In this document: piece after piece, positions 39,759 to 54,667 of the stretch | Layout of the letters: each line of letters starts with the position of its first letter | How positions within the stretch are numbered: the first letter of the stretch is position 1 | Source of the DNA: a virus | Virus record (IMG/VR): IMGVR_UViG_3300021963_000041 | Coordinates: 1-64,000 of that record | Strand: one strand, 5' to 3' | DNA length: 64,000 nt | Notes under the pieces: model-generated | Seen by the model: only the letters and a program-made list of their open reading frames with translations | Told to the model about the DNA's origin: nothing | Databases searched by the model: none | Program-made: the position numbers and the translations under genes

Positions 39759-40055
39759 TTACTTTTTGATTTTTGTTAGTAAGTCGCGCTCTTGTACGAT
39801 ATGATAGTCTACACCATCATACTCCATTACTTGGGCTGCGAAACGTTGGTAGATTACAATGTCTCCAGGTTTGCAGGTTGTTTCTACAAACAGACTAGGA
39901 GCTGCCCAGAAACCTTTACCGGCTTCTACTACCTCTGCTTTTAAAGTTTTTTGATCATCCACTTCAGGTAATAAGATACCACCTGAGCTAATTTCATCCT
40001 GTTCGACAGGTTTGCATACTAGCTTATCGCTAATAGGTTCGAATACACTACTCAT
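39759..40055 (-). CDS. groES: co-chaperonin GroES
   Basis: 98 residues. Mobile loop EISSGGILLPE replaces the host-type GGIVLxG segment and contacts GroEL; the roof and core (VEAGKGFWAAPSLFVET, KPGDIVIYQRFAA) follow the GroES pattern. Cotranscribed with groEL. Promoter at 40078-40107. Confidence 0.93.
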   Translation of the reverse strand: MSSVFEPISDKLVCKPVEQDEISSGGILLPEVDDQKTLKAEVVEAGKGFWAAPSLFVETTCKPGDIVIYQRFAAQVMEYDGVDYHIVQERDLLTKIKK

Positions 40056-40077
40056 AATTATATAACTGTTGTTTTAA

Positions 40078-40107
40078 TTAATATACGAAAAAAAGACCCA
40101 AGAGCAA
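40078..40107 (-). promoter_or_regulatory. groES promoter overlapping the hsp20 terminator
   Basis: TTGC, 18 nt, TATATTAA, 22 nt before groES. The spacer is one shorter than the others. The -33 box lies in the loop of the hairpin of the preceding terminator. Confidence 0.6.
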
Positions 40108-40115
40108 GCGTTGGT
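40088..40115 (-). terminator. terminator of hsp20
   Basis: ACCAA ... TTGGGT (stem with a bulge, loop CGCTTGCTC) followed by C and seven U, immediately after the hsp20 stop at 40116. The stem is weak, so it may be leaky. Confidence 0.5.
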
Positions 40116-40526
40116 TTATTTAATTTGTAACTTTTTTGGTTTAGCTTCTTCTGCAAATGGAATAGTAATGATCAATAGACCATTCTCCATAGCCGCTGTA
40201 CTCTCTGATAAAGTGTACTTTGGTGAGATTTTGTAAGCTAGATTAAATGATCGACGAGCAATACCTCTACACTGATATGTGCGAGCTTCTTCTTCTCCGT
40301 CATGCTGCTTTGGTTTGTTGTAGGACACTTTGAGTACATCAAGTTCGATATCAATATCGACTTCACCTTTACTCAAACCGGTACAAGCGATCTCAAATAC
40401 AAGACCGTCTGAATGTTCGTAAATGTCTACTGGGTGTGGAATTTTGATCTCTGAAATAGATCCGAAACGCGAATGTGCGTTAAATAGGTCCCGGAATAGG
40501 ACGTCAAAAGTGACTTCTGTGTTCAT
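40116..40526 (-). CDS. small heat-shock protein (Hsp20/alpha-crystallin)
   Basis: 136 residues. Alpha-crystallin domain from about residue 40 with EIACTGLSKGEVDIDIELDVLKVSYN, YQCRGIARRSFNLAYKI and a C-terminal AMENGLLIITIPFAEEAKPKKLQI that includes the LxIxIP-type I-x-I anchor. Holds unfolded proteins for GroEL refolding. Preceded by an unusually strong Shine-Dalgarno sequence. Confidence 0.93.
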   Translation of the reverse strand: MNTEVTFDVLFRDLFNAHSRFGSISEIKIPHPVDIYEHSDGLVFEIACTGLSKGEVDIDIELDVLKVSYNKPKQHDGEEEARTYQCRGIARRSFNLAYKISPKYTLSESTAAMENGLLIITIPFAEEAKPKKLQIK

Positions 40527-43912: not shown

Positions 43913-44707
43913 TTATTTGCCGGTCATGCAACTTAGTCGCAAGTACTGCACATTCTTCTTTACTAGCTCCATATCAACATTACTCATGTCGTATGTCTCT
44001 AGGAAGTTGTGTGGAGTTGGAATCCGAGTAGTATGATCTACTCTAAAGTCCTGACCATGTGCAGCCGCTAGTACTGGGAATACTGAGTCTGTGCTGCGCA
44101 TTGCTGGATGATCGTAGTAGGAGAACTCTGTTGGATCACCTTGACCTAAACAGTGGATCGGTTTCAGTAATAGGTTGTGCTCTTTCAAATAGTCATAAGC
44201 CATCCAACGAGCTTCCTTAATACCTTGATCATCTTTGAAGTCTTCTAACCACGCCTGAGGAATTGCAATCTTAGAGAAACCAATTGTGCTAATCCAATCT
44301 TGCTCTAATCCCCATTTGTAAGCTTCTAGCCAATCCTCTTTAGTTTTACCTTGAGGACAGAAGAAGATTTCAGTGCTATCTAACAAGCCTTCAGCTTCCA
44401 TACGGTCGCGGAACTTGATAGCGTTAGCAATCGTAGCATCTTTATCAAACAATACATCTGGTGCGATTACTTCACTAGGTGCTAACTCTTTCACTACGTT
44501 GATCAACACATCTTCAGTCACTAAGGCACGCTCAGCTGCTGAATTGTCTAGTGTGATCCAGCGATCAAGATCCTCATCAATCTGATCATAGATGAACTGT
44601 CTGTACTCTGGTGATTGTACCCACAAATGGGCTAGTACAAACAATCTATCGCCAAGCTTCATCGGCTCTAAATTACTCAAGGGCGATATAACGTATACGT
44701 CCATCAT
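43913..44707 (-). CDS. tRNA-guanine transglycosylase/DpdA-like enzyme
   Basis: 264 residues. TGT-fold pattern: ITLDNSAAE with Asp54 (place of the TGT Asp102 in LxDDGG), IAPDVLFD with Asp84, FFCPQGKTKEDWLEA with Q-G (as in VQGG), STIGFSK, and CLGQGDPTEF...RSTDSVF with Asp207 (place of the nucleophile Asp280 in FDCVxPTR). Zinc ligands of canonical TGT are absent and the protein is shorter than bacterial TGT (about 380), as expected for phage DpdA. DpdA exchanges guanine in DNA for a 7-deazaguanine base. Lies beside folE, queE and two queD-like genes, which supports DNA, not tRNA, modification. Confidence 0.72.
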   Translation of the reverse strand: MMDVYVISPLSNLEPMKLGDRLFVLAHLWVQSPEYRQFIYDQIDEDLDRWITLDNSAAERALVTEDVLINVVKELAPSEVIAPDVLFDKDATIANAIKFRDRMEAEGLLDSTEIFFCPQGKTKEDWLEAYKWGLEQDWISTIGFSKIAIPQAWLEDFKDDQGIKEARWMAYDYLKEHNLLLKPIHCLGQGDPTEFSYYDHPAMRSTDSVFPVLAAAHGQDFRVDHTTRIPTPHNFLETYDMSNVDMELVKKNVQYLRLSCMTGK

Positions 44708-45066
44708 TATAGAGTGATTGAGTAGATTTGTTTGATTACAATTTCGTCTGCATCTACATCCTCTTCTAGTTGTTTTGCTACCGCATAGTCTAGAGATTTT
44801 CCTGGTGTAAGTTCAATCCACATCTCCTCTAAGAATCTAGAAGATTCAATGTTACCAAACTCATCACGTGTTACTTGGAACACTGCTACTTTTACTTGCT
44901 GTCTATTCATATTATTACTTGGATTAAAAATTAAGGAAGTACCACTACTGATAGTAGACCAATTTGTGTTTGGATTTATTGTGGTGGTGTATCCAGCTGT
45001 ATTTGTTGTAAGGATGCAACCGCTAGTGAGGTCACTAGTGGTTCCATAGTGAATTTTAGGCTCCAT
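44707..45066 (-). CDS. hypothetical protein (119 aa)
   Basis: Thr/Asn/Ser-rich first half (TTNTAGYTTTINPNTNWSTI), then an acidic helical half (LDYAVAKQLEEDVDADEIVIKQ). Overlaps both the DpdA-like gene and folE. It may be a small component of the 7-deazaguanine operon, but has no known fold. Confidence 0.5.
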   Translation of the reverse strand: MEPKIHYGTTSDLTSGCILTTNTAGYTTTINPNTNWSTISSGTSLIFNPSNNMNRQQVKVAVFQVTRDEFGNIESSRFLEEMWIELTPGKSLDYAVAKQLEEDVDADEIVIKQIYSITL

Positions 45067-45703
45067 AACGACTTTGATCTATAAGGTTAAAAAATTCTTG
45101 TCTTGTACCAATCTCGTTAGTCCAGAAGTATCCTGACATTTGAGATGTCTTCATTACTGATTCATGTTTGATACCACGACACTTAACGCAGTTGTGTTGT
45201 GATTCAATAACTACAGCTACACCGCGATTACCAATACACAAGCGATCAATATGATCATGAATCTGCTTAGTTAATGATTCTTGGATATTTGGACGACGTG
45301 AGTAGAAATCTACAATACGATTCAACTTACTCAATCCAACAACCATATCATCCTTCTCTTTACCTGGAATATATGCTACGTGAGCTACTCCTGAGAATGT
45401 TAGGTTGTGATGTGCACACATACTCATTACTGGAATACGTGTCTGACAAATCAATCCAGTATAACCCTCATCATTAGGGAATGCAGTGATTTCTGGTTCT
45501 GGTGAGATTGATCCTGCGATCAAATCATTAACCCAAGCTTTAGCTACACGATGTGGTGTACGATCACTATGTGGATCAGCTTTCCAATCGAATCCTAATG
45601 CTGTTAAGAATCCACCATAATACTCAGCAGCCTTTTCAATCATCTGCTTTTTCTCCTCTTCTGTACGAGGAATGTTTCCATTTGCTTTTTTAATTAACTC
45701 CAT
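45056..45703 (-). CDS. folE: GTP cyclohydrolase I
   Basis: 215 residues. Catalytic zinc site visible in SMCAHHNLTFSG and NCVKCRGI (Cys/His/Cys), with PHRVAKAWVN, GLSKLNRIVDFYSRRPNIQE and the C-terminal GxxT-type pattern. Opens the guanine imidazole ring of GTP to give dihydroneopterin triphosphate, the first step of folate and of 7-deazaguanine synthesis. Neighbours point to the second use. Adjacent P-loop kinase starts 6 nt upstream. Confidence 0.93.
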   Translation of the reverse strand: MELIKKANGNIPRTEEEKKQMIEKAAEYYGGFLTALGFDWKADPHSDRTPHRVAKAWVNDLIAGSISPEPEITAFPNDEGYTGLICQTRIPVMSMCAHHNLTFSGVAHVAYIPGKEKDDMVVGLSKLNRIVDFYSRRPNIQESLTKQIHDHIDRLCIGNRGVAVVIESQHNCVKCRGIKHESVMKTSQMSGYFWTNEIGTRQEFFNLIDQSRYGA

Positions 45704-45709
45704 CTCTTA

Positions 45710-46177
45710 TTAGTTATTTACTTTAATATACCAATTCTCAAACGCTTTTGCAACACCTCCAAGACCTAACTCCTCATCTCTTGCATCTGCTTCCTCAAAG
45801 CTAAGGTCATCCTTTGCAATCGATCGATCATAGAATCTATATCTACGAACATCGTCAGCAGCTTCTAGCCAAATCATATCAATGTTATCAAAACCAAATT
45901 CATTTACTAAACCCCATACAATACTTGCCTGACGAATACCATCAACAACAACTCTCTCATACTTCTCAATCTCAGCGATTAGTTCTTGAGCAATCTGCAT
46001 ATCAAGGTTCTGTGTGTTTTGTAACTCACTGCGAGTATTCTTACCAGAAACTCTTTTTACAATATCCGACACAGTAATTCGCTTTGCTTTTGTGATGTAA
46101 CATAAAGCATCTGCGTAAGTACTTTTGCCACTGCAGATTTTACCAAATAGTAAAACGATTCTCTTTGTTTGTAACAT
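45710..46177 (-). CDS. P-loop nucleotide kinase (155 aa)
   Basis: Walker A GKICSGKST at about 12-20, a VDG strand, and C-terminal DRSIAKDDLSFEEADARDEELG resembling the LID region of dNMP/adenylate-like kinases. Could phosphorylate a deoxynucleoside monophosphate; a deazaguanine nucleotide is possible given the operon, but this is inference. Leaderless promoter at 46182-46212. Confidence 0.7.
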   Translation of the reverse strand: MLQTKRIVLLFGKICSGKSTYADALCYITKAKRITVSDIVKRVSGKNTRSELQNTQNLDMQIAQELIAEIEKYERVVVDGIRQASIVWGLVNEFGFDNIDMIWLEAADDVRRYRFYDRSIAKDDLSFEEADARDEELGLGGVAKAFENWYIKVNN

Positions 46178-46181
46178 GATA

Positions 46182-46212
46182 CGAATATACGACTAAATTT
46201 CTACAATTCCAA
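46182..46212 (-). promoter_or_regulatory. leaderless promoter of the kinase-folE-DpdA block
   Basis: TTGG, 19 nt, TATATTCG, 4 nt, ATG at 46177. Overlaps the 3' end of the QueD paralog gene. Confidence 0.6.
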
Positions 46213-46534
46213 AGAATTCTCCATCCTCTGATACAGAACATCTACACAAACCAAAATAGTTTAATAAATCTTCTGCAATCATCTCACAACTCATTGCTCC
46301 AAAGTTGCAGCATCCATAAGCTGGATCGTACCAAGTCTTCGCAATGTGCTGTTTGATTTTATGTTTGAGATCGATAAACTCAATGTCACGATTCCCATGC
46401 GATACCTCCGCTCGGCAAAGGATTTGGAATGTGTGACGATGCAGATGTGCTAAGTACTCTACGTGTGGTAGATTACAATCAGGCCAGTGATGCAGACCTT
46501 CAATATCTAAACGAACTTCTACGAACTTCCTCAT
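46193..46534 (-). CDS. divergent QueD/PTPS paralog lacking the catalytic Cys
   Basis: 113 residues. Pattern of the 6-pyruvoyl-tetrahydropterin synthase fold: HHWPDC with two His, AHLHRHTF (H32, H34 zinc ligands), IEFIDLKHKI, then SCEMIAEDLLNYF and EDGEFFG at the end (Glu). In true QueD the motif is CxxxHGHxF; here the first residue four before the His is Leu28, and HGH is HRH, so the nucleophilic Cys is gone. A different reaction, such as CDG decarboxylation or another step, is likely. Next to dcd-like and folE genes. Confidence 0.6.
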   Translation of the reverse strand: MRKFVEVRLDIEGLHHWPDCNLPHVEYLAHLHRHTFQILCRAEVSHGNRDIEFIDLKHKIKQHIAKTWYDPAYGCCNFGAMSCEMIAEDLLNYFGLCRCSVSEDGEFFGIVEI

Positions 46535-47016
46535 TACTTTAAGTCTTTATTACCTTGCCATTGGCCGTTATACAATTCTGCTTCATTATTCTCAAACATA
46601 ATGATTTGAGCTACACGAGCACCTTTCTCAATGATGATAGGCTCAGTAACAATCATTACACCACCCATCTCATCTACTTCGAATCCTGGATCATACACAC
46701 CACTAGTGATAATTGCTCCACAACGAAGTACGCTAGAACGATGGCGAATAAAAGCTGTCATATTATTTGGTAACTTACATCCTTGCTCAAATGTTAATGA
46801 GTATGCTCCTGCACTAAGTTTGTAGATGAACTTTCCATCTGCATTAATCATTGGTGCTACTTCGTGGTAATCCTCAACTGCTGTCTTATCTGACATAACA
46901 GCTCCACCCATAATTCGTTTCACACCTTTCAGAGTAAGGTCATACCCTACCTGAGCTCTTGAGCCTTTATTATTAGTTTGTAGTAGCTCTTCTACTTGGA
47001 ATGCGTTTTGTAACAT
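46534..47016 (-). CDS. dCTP deaminase/dUTPase-family protein
   Basis: 160 residues with the Dcd/Dut trimer pattern: VGYDLTLKGV, YKLSAGAYSLTFEQG, AFIRHRSSVLRCGA (RSS motif), SGVYDPGFEVDEMG and KGARVAQIIMF. Could deaminate dCTP or hydrolyse dUTP; Glu at the Dcd catalytic position is not clearly aligned. Complements the separate dUTPase at 51721. Its start is overlapped by the small gene 46973-47140. Confidence 0.75.
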   Translation of the reverse strand: MLQNAFQVEELLQTNNKGSRAQVGYDLTLKGVKRIMGGAVMSDKTAVEDYHEVAPMINADGKFIYKLSAGAYSLTFEQGCKLPNNMTAFIRHRSSVLRCGAIITSGVYDPGFEVDEMGGVMIVTEPIIIEKGARVAQIIMFENNEAELYNGQWQGNKDLK

Positions 47017-47140
47017 AGTATTTAATTGTGTTTAAATCAATATAAGATAAATTTGGATAGTTTGCAACAAACAAATCTAGAAGATCGAAGTGAGCAAAGC
47101 TATCTGGACATAGTCCTATAAAGTGTAGGATTTCGTGCAT
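46973..47140 (-). CDS. small hypothetical protein (55 aa)
   Basis: ATG at 47140 overlaps the QueE stop (TAATG), TAA at 46973, overlapping the Dcd-like gene by 44 nt. MHEILHFIGLCPDSF then helical, basic tail (YYVTKRIPSRRATTN). Coupling supports it; function unknown. Confidence 0.45.
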   Translation of the reverse strand: MHEILHFIGLCPDSFAHFDLLDLFVANYPNLSYIDLNTIKYYVTKRIPSRRATTN

Positions 47141-47922
47141 TATACTCCTCGTTTTGTGTCGAATGCAATGATATGCTCACGACCGGTAAAATTATATCCA
47201 TTCTCTGTGCAGAAGTCAATCACCATTGGATAGACTCTGACCAATTCCTCACGATTATCTCCTGGAGGCATGATCCAAGTTTTATTCTTAGGAATACCAA
47301 GCTCAACTCTAAATGCTTCAATCTGTTCCCAAATCTCTGGCATCTCAACTGGATTACATACCGGCTTGAAGTGGTAGTTTGTATGGTATGCGATTGATTG
47401 TTTCATAGCTTCGTAATTCAAACGTAAGCTGTTATGCTTGTCGATCATCTTTTGATCAACTGCGATACCTTTCGGTGTAAGTACTCCCAACTTAGGTACG
47501 CTATTGCTAAACTTAGGACTGAGAGATATGAGACCGATTGGGTAATCTGTTTCAATGAAGTGACTACCTTCTGTCTCCATCGTAATAACAATACCTCTTT
47601 CATTTGCTAGGTGGGTTAATTCGTTAACTAAATCTGGGTGCATTGTTGGTGATCCACCCGTCAACATCATCTCCTTAATGTCTGGACGTTCGTCATACAT
47701 CTTGATGATATCGTTAAAAGTGAAACCACCCTTCTCTGGATGGATACTTGTATACCAAGAGTCACACCAACCACCTTCACCAAACCAACATCTGTGAGTA
47801 CATCCAGTTGTTCTAACTGCTACTGTTGGAAAGCCCGCTCTGGAGCCTTCACTCTGCACACAATAGTATAGTTCTACTATTGGCAGTTTCTTATCGTAAT
47901 CTGTAATTCTTCCTGCTTTCAT
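47140..47922 (-). CDS. queE: 7-carboxy-7-deazaguanine synthase QueE (radical SAM)
   Basis: 260 residues. IVELYYCVQSEGSRAGFPTVAVRTTGC is the QueE N-terminus; the iron-sulfur cluster cysteines are spaced CxxxCx7C (CTHRC...GGWC). LTGGSPTMHP (SAM-binding GGxP), METEGS and ISLSPKFSNS follow. It converts 6-carboxytetrahydropterin to CDG. The widened CxxxCx7C instead of CxxxCxxC is a known kind of variant in QueE. Directly precedes the 55-residue gene; coupled to an upstream 80-residue protein. Confidence 0.88.
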   Translation of the reverse strand: MKAGRITDYDKKLPIVELYYCVQSEGSRAGFPTVAVRTTGCTHRCWFGEGGWCDSWYTSIHPEKGGFTFNDIIKMYDERPDIKEMMLTGGSPTMHPDLVNELTHLANERGIVITMETEGSHFIETDYPIGLISLSPKFSNSVPKLGVLTPKGIAVDQKMIDKHNSLRLNYEAMKQSIAYHTNYHFKPVCNPVEMPEIWEQIEAFRVELGIPKNKTWIMPPGDNREELVRVYPMVIDFCTENGYNFTGREHIIAFDTKRGV

Positions 47923-47923
47923 A

Positions 47924-48166
47924 TTAAAATGGTAATTCGTCGTCTAAAATGTCTTGTACCGTTGGCTGCTCTGGTTGTGCAGTTTTACCAAAATACTGAT
48001 CCAGAAAGTCTACCGGATACATCATCACTGTTCCGCTATATTTTGGATTACTAATTTCTTGCGATTGTATAACAACTCCTTGAGCTACTGCTGCTGTTGC
48101 TACTCTTTTACCTAGGTCTGAACCTGCTGCATGCCCTAGGTATTCATAAAGTGACTTAAATTCCAT
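47924..48166 (-). CDS. small protein with SSB-like C-terminal tip (80 aa)
   Basis: Helical N-terminus, a beta segment (NPKYSGTVMMYPVDFL), a Gln/Pro/Glu-rich linker and the last residues ILDDELPF, resembling the acidic SSB-Ct (DDDIPF) through which SSB recruits partner enzymes. The rest is not an OB fold. It may dock onto SSB-binding host proteins, competing with SSB; that is inference. Confidence 0.5.
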   Translation of the reverse strand: MEFKSLYEYLGHAAGSDLGKRVATAAVAQGVVIQSQEISNPKYSGTVMMYPVDFLDQYFGKTAQPEQPTVQDILDDELPF

Positions 48167-48183
48167 AACCTGTGTTTTTTATT

Positions 48184-48462
48184 TTAACTATTTTCTTCAA
48201 TATACTCCAAAACTTCCATATAAGACCCTCTGTGTATATAGATTGGTGTTCCCTCTCCCACATAGGTGTTCCAGACATTATATTCTAGATATTCGATGGC
48301 ATCCTCTTCAGTCATCTCGTCACGCTGCATTAGAACTGTTACCATCCTACTTGCATCATATACCACCTTGCGAGTACCATTTGTATAAGTAATTCCTATG
48401 ACAGCCTCATCAAAGCCGTCAGCGAACATTGTTTGATCATTTGTTGAGCTTTCTGTCGTCAT
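48184..48462 (-). CDS. hypothetical acidic protein (92 aa)
   Basis: Beta-rich N-terminal part, an acidic middle helix (MQRDEMTEEDAIEYLEYNVW) and beta end. Overlaps the QueD gene by 26 nt. No family recognised. Confidence 0.5.
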   Translation of the reverse strand: MTTESSTNDQTMFADGFDEAVIGITYTNGTRKVVYDASRMVTVLMQRDEMTEEDAIEYLEYNVWNTYVGEGTPIYIHRGSYMEVLEYIEENS

Positions 48463-49015
48463 ATTCTAATACTCCTTTTGATTTAGCGTAATTAACAATA
48501 TCCGTAAGATTGGTAGCGTAAAAGTTTTCACGCTCTGCATCTGTAATACTTTCGTGGAATGCCTCCGTAAAACAGTTTGGTGTTTCGTAAATCTTTACAC
48601 CATGAATCTGTAAGCCTGTTTTTGCATCACCATATAGCTCATTTGTGAGCACTTCCATTGCTAAGTAAACTTCTTTAGCAATATTCTCCACTGAAGGGTT
48701 GCAATACTCTCCGTTACCATTCAAACTCATTAACCACAACTTAGTACCATAGTCTCTAGTCGTTTCGATTAGCTTTGTATCATGTGGATTAAGAATCATT
48801 CCATGATCTAGTATATCATCAATCCATTGACAGAATACACGCTTGATCTCTTTGAAGTCGATGGCATAACCAATCTCCTCCATATTTTCAAATGCAAACG
48901 TAAGTTCGTATAAATAAGTGTGTCCATGAATGTTGTAGCATTTCATAAACTCATTCATAACTCGATGTCCTGAATCGAAGTTACCCTTTCTTGTGATGTA
49001 TTGTATTTTGCTCAT
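48437..49015 (-). CDS. queD: QueD, 6-carboxytetrahydropterin synthase
   Basis: 192 residues. FDSGHRV (H17), KCYNIHGHTY with nucleophilic Cys26 and zinc ligands His30/His32, AIDFKEIKRV, a DHGMILNPHDT segment and NPSVENIAKE/YETPNCFTEA near the C-terminus as in QueD. It is longer than bacterial QueD (about 120). Makes CPH4 from dihydroneopterin triphosphate for QueE. First gene of the 7-deazaguanine block. Confidence 0.85.
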   Translation of the reverse strand: MSKIQYITRKGNFDSGHRVMNEFMKCYNIHGHTYLYELTFAFENMEEIGYAIDFKEIKRVFCQWIDDILDHGMILNPHDTKLIETTRDYGTKLWLMSLNGNGEYCNPSVENIAKEVYLAMEVLTNELYGDAKTGLQIHGVKIYETPNCFTEAFHESITDAERENFYATNLTDIVNYAKSKGVLEYDDRKLNK

Positions 49016-52807: not shown

Positions 52808-54667
52808 TTACACGATTTCGCATGCACCACCTGCACAAGCTGCCTCACCTTTGAGGTCTGTTGTGTCATCTAACTCAATCACTTTGGATAAGTCGATGCT
52901 GTGCAATGATTTCATCATCTCTTCGTAAACCTCCTCCGTACAATCTTCAAAAGGAGCTTGAGTGTATGTACCACCGTTGAAAGGTAATACTGATAGACCG
53001 TTGTAGTGATCGCGGTTCTCCCACATCCACTCACCAGCCATATCCCACTCCTCATCTCTCAATGATACTGTAGCAGATACATTGTGTGTATTGTTTCCTG
53101 AACGATGTCCTGGTTTAACCCACTCCAAGTGTACTTTCTTAATACGCTCTAGCAATTGGAAAGGTGATTCTGTTCTTAGGATCGCTCCTTCTGGTGCTTT
53201 TTGTGGAATAGAGATTACTGCTGTGTCATGCGGACGGAAGTACTCATCTTCAATTAACTCTGGGTGATTGATTGCAAGGTAGCTGTAAATTGCTTCATTC
53301 TTTCCTACGCGAATACGACGGATGTAGAAGTCATTATGCCATGCGTGAATACCTGAGCTTGTTCCTAATGTCAGTGATGTAGTACCAGCTGGTTTAACAG
53401 TTGTCGTACGAGCTGACTTGTTGATACCGATCAACTCTGCTACACGAATGTTTTCTTCCTTAACAACTTTAGCTGCTTCTTTCATGTTGTATCCTAATAC
53501 TGTACCAGATCCGATACCAGTCATAGATACTCCGATCAACGCATCCTTCTCAGTTGTACGTCTCCATACGTCACGTAGATAATGGAAGTTTGTGTAGCCT
53601 GCTTGTAGTGTTCCAATAAATGACGCTGCTTTCACACGAGCATTCAAGTCTTCTTGTGATTCAATATCCGATACGTTTACCTCACACAAGTTACAGAATT
53701 GGAATGGACGTAGTGCAATCTCGCAACATGGGTTGGTTCCCCAGTCTTTGTCGTTAGTCAAATAGATACCTGGCTCTCCTGCTCCTGATAACTCAACACG
53801 CTTCCAGATATCCATAAAGAACTCTTTGGTAAGTTTATGTCTCATTAATACAGCTGAGTTGTTTGCACGTCCACGTTGTGGATTGGTTTCCCACCAGTTA
53901 CCTGATTTGCAAGCGATCATTTCATCGTCGTCAGCACTAAACAAGCTAATAAGAGCTGCTCTACGAATACCTCCGGCAAGGACTGCATCCGCAATATGAC
54001 ATACGATGTCATGTACTTCAATTGGTGATAATTTGTCTCCATTTTCTTTTGCATCTAAAATACCTTGAACTTTCACAAGACACTCTTTCAGTGGTTGTGC
54101 ACCTGGAGCTTTACCACCTGATGTAACTAGACGAGCACCTTTTGGACGGATGTCTGAAAAGTCAAACTCCATACGAGATGTTCCGTGAAAGTAACTTTTA
54201 ATAAGAGCCTTAACTGCATCTGCCCATCCTTCGATAGAGTCAGCAATCAAGAATCGTTTTGTACGTTTAACGCTTGGTTTACGAATCTCCGGTAGAGCTT
54301 CTACGTGATGTTTTTGTACTGAGTACCCAACACCTGTTCCTCCAAGCAATAGGAACATTGCTTCACCAAATGCACGATAGTCATCGATTGGTAAGTAAGC
54401 ACAATTGTAAACTCTGTTAGGAGAAATCTCAATTGGCTTTCCTGCAAACTGCATAGACCTCATTGATGGCAAAATCTTTTTAGCATACACCATTTTGTAA
54501 ACTTCTTCTATCTCTTCCGCTAGGTTAGGATATTTTTTAAGGTGCATGTTCTTGTTGCGTGTTACCAACTCTTCCCATGTCTCTCTTCGTTGTAGCTCAG
54601 GAATGTACTTGGCGTATTTCATAAAAACCGTGATCTCACTAAGGATCTCGTTAGATAATGTCATCAT
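52808..54667 (-). CDS. nrdJ: class II (B12-dependent) ribonucleotide reductase
   Basis: 619 residues, monomeric RTPR-like. Substrate-site YNCAYLP, GGTGVGYSVQ, NPCCEIAL with catalytic Cys, CNLCEVN, GIGSGTVLG, GTTSLTLGTSSGIH, and C-terminal CAGGACEIV whose Cys pair passes electrons from thioredoxin. It needs adenosylcobalamin, so the host must make or import B12, and works with or without oxygen. A phage thioredoxin begins at 133. The only RNR class in the window. Confidence 0.92.
   Translation of the reverse strand: MMTLSNEILSEITVFMKYAKYIPELQRRETWEELVTRNKNMHLKKYPNLAEEIEEVYKMVYAKKILPSMRSMQFAGKPIEISPNRVYNCAYLPIDDYRAFGEAMFLLLGGTGVGYSVQKHHVEALPEIRKPSVKRTKRFLIADSIEGWADAVKALIKSYFHGTSRMEFDFSDIRPKGARLVTSGGKAPGAQPLKECLVKVQGILDAKENGDKLSPIEVHDIVCHIADAVLAGGIRRAALISLFSADDDEMIACKSGNWWETNPQRGRANNSAVLMRHKLTKEFFMDIWKRVELSGAGEPGIYLTNDKDWGTNPCCEIALRPFQFCNLCEVNVSDIESQEDLNARVKAASFIGTLQAGYTNFHYLRDVWRRTTEKDALIGVSMTGIGSGTVLGYNMKEAAKVVKEENIRVAELIGINKSARTTTVKPAGTTSLTLGTSSGIHAWHNDFYIRRIRVGKNEAIYSYLAINHPELIEDEYFRPHDTAVISIPQKAPEGAILRTESPFQLLERIKKVHLEWVKPGHRSGNNTHNVSATVSLRDEEWDMAGEWMWENRDHYNGLSVLPFNGGTYTQAPFEDCTEEVYEEMMKSLHSIDLSKVIELDDTTDLKGEAACAGGACEIV

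Follow-up and report, generated by a model that had tools for sequence, protein, structure and literature searches.

A QueD-fold paralogue probably takes the place of QueC in a viral 7-deazaguanine DNA-modification cluster

The pathway to 7-deazaguanine bases usually ends at 7-cyano-7-deazaguanine (preQ0), which is made by QueC. How a virus might furnish such a base without QueC is the question raised by a block of minus-strand genes (43913-49015) in a 64,000-bp stretch of viral DNA (the window), which comprises bases 1-64000 of the 127,149-bp IMG/VR record IMGVR_UViG_3300021963_000041. An earlier, sequence-only reading of the window had described FolE, QueD, QueE and a DpdA-like enzyme resembling tRNA-guanine transglycosylase (TGT) as clustered, had seen no QueC, and had singled out a second QueD-type protein lacking the catalytic Cys (46193-46534, here called QD2) as candidate for an extra step. 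Family profile matches and an AlphaFold model bore out the clustering, with every open reading frame (ORF) of the block lying where that reading had placed it. We consider it likely that the block is a 7-deazaguanine DNA-modification cluster in which synthesis halts at 7-carboxy-7-deazaguanine (CDG) and then follows a decarboxylation branch in preference to the preQ0 branch. The gene content, the folds, the conserved residues, the co-occurrence of genes and the lack of QueC are observed; what QD2 catalyses, which base enters the DNA and whether it protects are the parts of this proposal that we infer.

The absence of QueC extends beyond the window. Searches with the QueC family (PF06508), in which the positive controls worked, gave no match in the whole 127,149-bp record, and QueF was not found in the record either. 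Genes for terminase, portal, major head and tail sheath proteins show that the record covers the greater part of the genome of a phage with a contractile tail; relatives of this phage infect Flavobacteriia.

Sequence-only fold searches of the PDB with QD2 and with the transglycosylase returned nothing convincing, and the structures of both were therefore predicted. The model of the 113-amino-acid QD2 (predicted local distance difference test score (pLDDT) of 95.5) found E. coli QueD as its best PDB matches (E 6.5e-6), and the QD2 and QueD profiles could be aligned end to end with hhalign (E 3.6e-6). Like E. coli QueD (PDB 4ntk), QD2 has a T-fold, three zinc histidines and a pterin-anchoring Glu, with H15, H32, H34 and E103 corresponding to the QueD zinc site and pterin anchor. 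Unlike E. coli QueD, it has Leu28 at the position of the catalytic Cys (Leu in 134/134 distinct homologues), it has no counterpart of the Asp-His pair, and it has the new invariant residues Arg49, Glu52 and Cys83, the last being another invariant Cys present despite the loss of QueD's own. Nine residues (H15, L28, H32, R33, H34, V44, R49, E52 and E103) are invariant in all 134 homologues, and S82, C83 and E84 in all 133 that cover them, an invariance that is due in part to the search pattern but that is nonetheless shared by homologues found with plain tblastn. Lacking the catalytic Cys and the Asp-His pair, QD2 is therefore a QueD-fold paralogue and not a QueD, and from sequence and model its active site has been remodelled within the QueD fold, yet looks capable of accommodating a pyrimidine ring of the 2-amino-4-oxo type. 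At two loci the QD2 ORF runs on from an HNH-endonuclease-like N-terminal region (L002:6644-7525; L025:7278-8339); such extensions (MA9V-3, L025) were judged to be mobile-element insertions and rejected as a functional part of QD2.

The QD2 family is nearly virus-specific: at least 587 stretches in IMG/VR matched it, and one scan of 84,980 cellular-genome species gave only five relatives, on contigs of metagenome-assembled genomes. To describe its company we used 163 fetched loci, some of them redundant since contigs were fetched twice. A transglycosylase is present in 152 of the 163, belonging to the window type (79), the Xanthomonas phage X1 type (28) or the DpdA1 (CAjan/Roos) type (45), and the other partners are QueE (122), QueD (118) and FolE (117). 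QueC was detected in 0/163 of these loci and, when whole QD2-encoding records were searched, in 0/51 and 0/50. Pairing with three types of transglycosylase indicates that QD2 serves the supply of the base and not one inserter, and because it travels with a transglycosylase and not with QueC, it most likely stands in for QueC, acting as a CDG decarboxylase. The suggestion that the Cys-less paralogue performs an extra step thus gains a virus-enriched family that keeps company with FolE, QueD, QueE and DpdA, and the step itself is predicted from these sequence data.

Complete genomes of isolates provide a contrast that also bears on whether a host enzyme could complete the pathway. Full-length QueC was found in 0/9 QD2-positive phages and in 7/7 QD2-negative, QueE-positive controls (Fisher p 9e-5; counting a remnant in Vibrio phage D479, described below, as QueC raises p to 1.4e-3; the lineages are not fully independent), and the QD2-positive Xanthomonas phage X1 gave a sub-threshold QueC match. 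If the phage overproduced CDG, host QueC made preQ0 and DpdA inserted it, then QD2 would have the role of an additional QueD or of an accessory protein. Bacteria and archaea commonly have QueC (12/14 control genomes), and E. coli expressing a phage DpdA alone incorporates preQ0 into DNA (PMC6884629). We nevertheless regard this route as improbable, since the QD2-negative, QueE-positive phages tested all bring their own QueC and the QD2-positive phages do not, and since a second QueD would not drop the Cys and the Asp-His pair in every member.

In the pathway that we propose, FolE, QueD and QueE would make CDG from GTP. QD2 would then grip the 2-amino-4-oxo edge of CDG via Glu103, place the 7-carboxylate at the zinc site formed by His15, His32 and His34, and remove it to yield 7-deazaguanine. 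The small DpdA would swap guanine of finished DNA for this base, giving 2'-deoxy-7-deazaguanosine (dDG) and possibly some 2'-deoxy-7-carboxy-7-deazaguanosine (dCDG), and the modified base would protect against those restriction enzymes that recognise their sites through guanine N7. That QD2 acts on free CDG is suggested by its taking the place of QueC, its QueD fold, its apparent needs for zinc and a guanine-type ring, and its association with three inserters; decarboxylation of CDG to 7-deazaguanine is the simplest reaction that fits.

The last step of this scheme depends on the identity of the 264-amino-acid transglycosylase (43913-44707). By sequence it matched no Pfam or NCBIfam family, and PF01702, the Pfam-type TGT, had no match anywhere in the record. 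Its AlphaFold model, built from 23 natural homologues (pLDDT 93.9), has the TGT barrel fold: all 50 PDB matches listed were tRNA-guanine transglycosylases (best E 6.7e-8), and no alignment with a non-TGT family was seen among them, in agreement with the sequence-only reading. D54, D84, Q119, S145, H185, L187, G188, E194 and D207 are invariant in 57/57 distinct homologues. By motif order, as opposed to coordinates, D54 would fit the general acid of TGT, D84 and Q119 the base-binding residues and D207 the nucleophile (we take D280, D102, D156 and Q203 of the Z. mobilis enzyme to be the equivalents of D207, D54, D84 and Q119, respectively). The C-x-C-x2-C zinc motif occurs in none of the 57 homologues. 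The protein matches phrog_20335 (E 3e-51) and phrog_19058 (E 6e-8), to which the DpdA annotated in phage immuto also belongs; a window-type profile recovers that DpdA (E 3e-29) as well as one Campylobacter phage CP220 protein (E 6e-26), and a BLASTP test of homology to recognised DpdA gave 28% over 221 columns. From model and alignments together, we take it to be a DpdA, predicted to exchange guanine in DNA. Were modification to occur at the nucleotide level instead, the base would be converted to a nucleotide that the adjacent kinase phosphorylates and a polymerase incorporates, with the TGT-fold protein as an accessory. The presence of a TGT-fold enzyme whose active-site motifs are conserved argues against this, as do the three transglycosylase types that accompany QD2. 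The kinase and dUTPase-like genes of the block, the fusion of the kinase to QD2 in some phages and a class II ribonucleotide reductase-like protein at 52808-54667 (read by eye and from the neighbouring gene in MA9V-3) would suit that mechanism, but most QD2 loci have no kinase, and we consider it highly improbable.

The kinase (KIN), a P-loop protein encoded between QD2 and FolE, and a dCTP deaminase/dUTPase-like protein are members of the block beyond those in the sequence-only reading. In two groups of phages, the dCTP deaminase/dUTPase-like gene lies next to QD2 or DpdA at the majority of loci. KIN is present in 51/163 QD2 loci and, two short fragments apart, is accompanied by the window-type DpdA in every case; in three divergent phages it forms the C-terminal part of a fusion with QD2 (L034:7887-8870; L110:7189-8154; L124:9935-10885). 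Since the three fusions are 46-48% identical to one another, the arrangement is old and has been kept, and it ties KIN to the pathway. KIN was rejected as an obligatory companion of the window-type DpdA, as no KIN homologue was found in the region read of D479, RHph_I1_18 or immuto. At L114:10321-11430, KIN continues in frame into FolE (370 amino acids), which is either a real fusion or a lost stop codon. Judged from these sequences, a role in guanine recycling or in an ATP-dependent step on CDG is possible. A less likely reading is that in one large phage group the step replacing QueC is carried out by a two-part unit of QD2 and a UPF0200-like kinase, fused in some members, the kinase driving an ATP-dependent step; this would either activate CDG on the way to a base not yet reported or recycle the guanine released by DpdA (GMP to GDP to GTP to FolE). 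The same neighbouring kinase and fusions would suit a QD2 that carries or activates CDG without decarboxylating it, leaving DpdA to insert CDG itself (dCDG in DNA), as would the retention of zinc and base-binding residues alongside the loss of the QueD catalytic residues. With the kinase in just 51 of the 163 loci, ATP chemistry is not general, and phages that use QueC need no CDG carrier; a carrier or activating function is therefore unlikely in our estimation, and decarboxylation is the reading we retain.

Several observations weigh against that reading. Decarboxylation of CDG by QD2 is a step we infer, and a simple cofactor-free decarboxylase leaves the QD2-kinase fusion in three phages unexplained. 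Related contigs of up to about 160 kb suggest that part of the genome may be missing from the 127-kb record (whole-record searches of these larger contigs likewise found no QueC), and the host probably carries a QueC, which could convert CDG made by the phage to preQ0. In Vibrio phage D479, QD2 occurs together with a partial QueC-like protein in which the P-loop motif is altered (SGIDS for SGGxDS). Mycobacterium phage Bipper is without QueC and has no QD2 detectable among its cluster proteins; absence of QueC alone therefore does not imply QD2. Faecalibacterium phage Roos has QD2 and DpdA and no QueE.

Each of these three phages has further features of its own. The QueC-like protein of D479 (L091:708-1514) adjoins a nicotinamide phosphoribosyltransferase and is possibly a repurposed QueC. 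In Bipper, gene 4 (L176:2047-2472) is a 141-amino-acid ORF between DpdA and QueD, in the slot that QueC occupies in related mycobacteriophage operons; it has an H-x-H motif, but no resemblance to either QueD or QD2 could be detected, so that it was rejected as a QD2 relative filling the QueC gap and may be a second QueC substitute. In Roos, a ParB-like protein, QD2, the DpdA1-type enzyme and a Vut_1 (YhhQ-like) transporter are encoded in a row (L081:7303-9899), and this phage may rely on its host or the medium as the source of the base or of CDG.

The nearest named isolates are Cellulophaga phage phiST (NC_020842) and Chryseobacterium phage MA9V-3, both of which share the core gene set with the window. 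phiST has QueD, QueE, FolE, QD2, kinase and a small DpdA in one operon (37% identity to the window for QD2 and 38.5% for DpdA) and no QueC was found in its whole record; it differs in having a MazG-like gene in place of the dUTPase-like gene. Flavobacterium phage vB_FspM_immuto_2-6A (NC_055915) resembles the window in its QueE and in its annotated DpdA, but it carries QueC, QueF and a formyltransferase and lacks QD2, and thus represents the preQ0/preQ1 branch. A CDG decarboxylase is not a new idea. In 2023, Cui and colleagues reportedly detected both dDG and dCDG in the DNA of phages, linked the transglycosylase subfamily DpdA3 to extensive replacement, and predicted that a protein named DpdL converts CDG to 7-deazaguanine in phages with dDG. 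QD2-positive phages have the setting expected for DpdL (CDG synthesis and DpdA, no QueC), and phiST carries a QD2 homologue; QD2 presumably belongs to the DpdL family.

The features of the block are collected in Table 1. The family assignments of FolE, QueE and QueD are sound at the level of sequence. QueE is 66% identical to the QueE of immuto and 62% to that of phiST, and matches NCBIfam QueE models down to E 2e-13, below their cut-offs; its alignment was too diverse for a collection-wide scan. QueD matches TIGR03367 (E 8e-17, below its cut-off) and by alignment keeps the zinc and catalytic residues (H17, C26, HGH 30-32, D70-H71, E110 and E144). The window QueD is thus canonical, unlike many phage QueDs in which HGY replaces HGH and the first zinc histidine is gone (Tyr in 56/94 aligned; for example L001:2675-3169, L078:8342-8803 and L079:6502-6993), with the Cys and Asp-His kept. 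Elsewhere in the window, a phage GroEL (38149-39756) followed by GroES-like and small heat-shock-like ORFs (39759-40526) lies directly downstream of the DNA polymerase region.

Table 1. Genes of the block, with window coordinates and the matches on which each assignment is based (NMP, nucleoside monophosphate; H2NTP, dihydroneopterin triphosphate; SAM, S-adenosylmethionine)
Feature	Position	Strand	Evidence
Putative DpdA-type DNA guanine transglycosylase, 264 aa	43913..44707	-	AlphaFold2 model, TGT PDB matches, phrog_20335, phrog_19058
119-aa protein, no family match	44707..45066	-	found only in close relatives (12 loci)
FolE, GTP cyclohydrolase I (GTP to H2NTP)	45056..45703	-	PF01227 E 5e-44; phrog_2197 E 2e-56
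KIN, P-loop NMP-kinase-like	45710..46177	-	PF13238 E 5e-8; UPF0200/AdkA-like PDB 3lw7 E 5e-7 (profile)
QD2, QueD-fold paralogue, predicted CDG decarboxylase	46193..46534	-	phrog_17812 E 4e-20; AlphaFold2 model; hhalign
dCTP deaminase/dUTPase-like	46534..47016	-	PF22769 E 1e-13; PRK02253 E 9e-26, below its cut-off
QueE, CDG synthase (radical SAM)	47140..47922	-	phrog_2076 E 3e-46
QueD, 6-carboxytetrahydropterin synthase	48437..49015	-	PF01242 E 1.5e-26; PDB 7v0f E 2e-6

Phages that decorate their guanine escape many restriction enzymes, and the cluster described here probably belongs to an anti-restriction type that is already known. With the QD2 family, the pathway gains a second branch point, one that is common in viruses and works with three kinds of transglycosylase. 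QD2 now has a defined candidate active site, such that its predicted CDG decarboxylase activity can be tested with few mutants, and it is usable as a sequence marker of viruses likely to carry 7-deazaguanine. The UPF0200-like kinase beside or fused to QD2 is a less expected component of the pathway, now defined enough to test.

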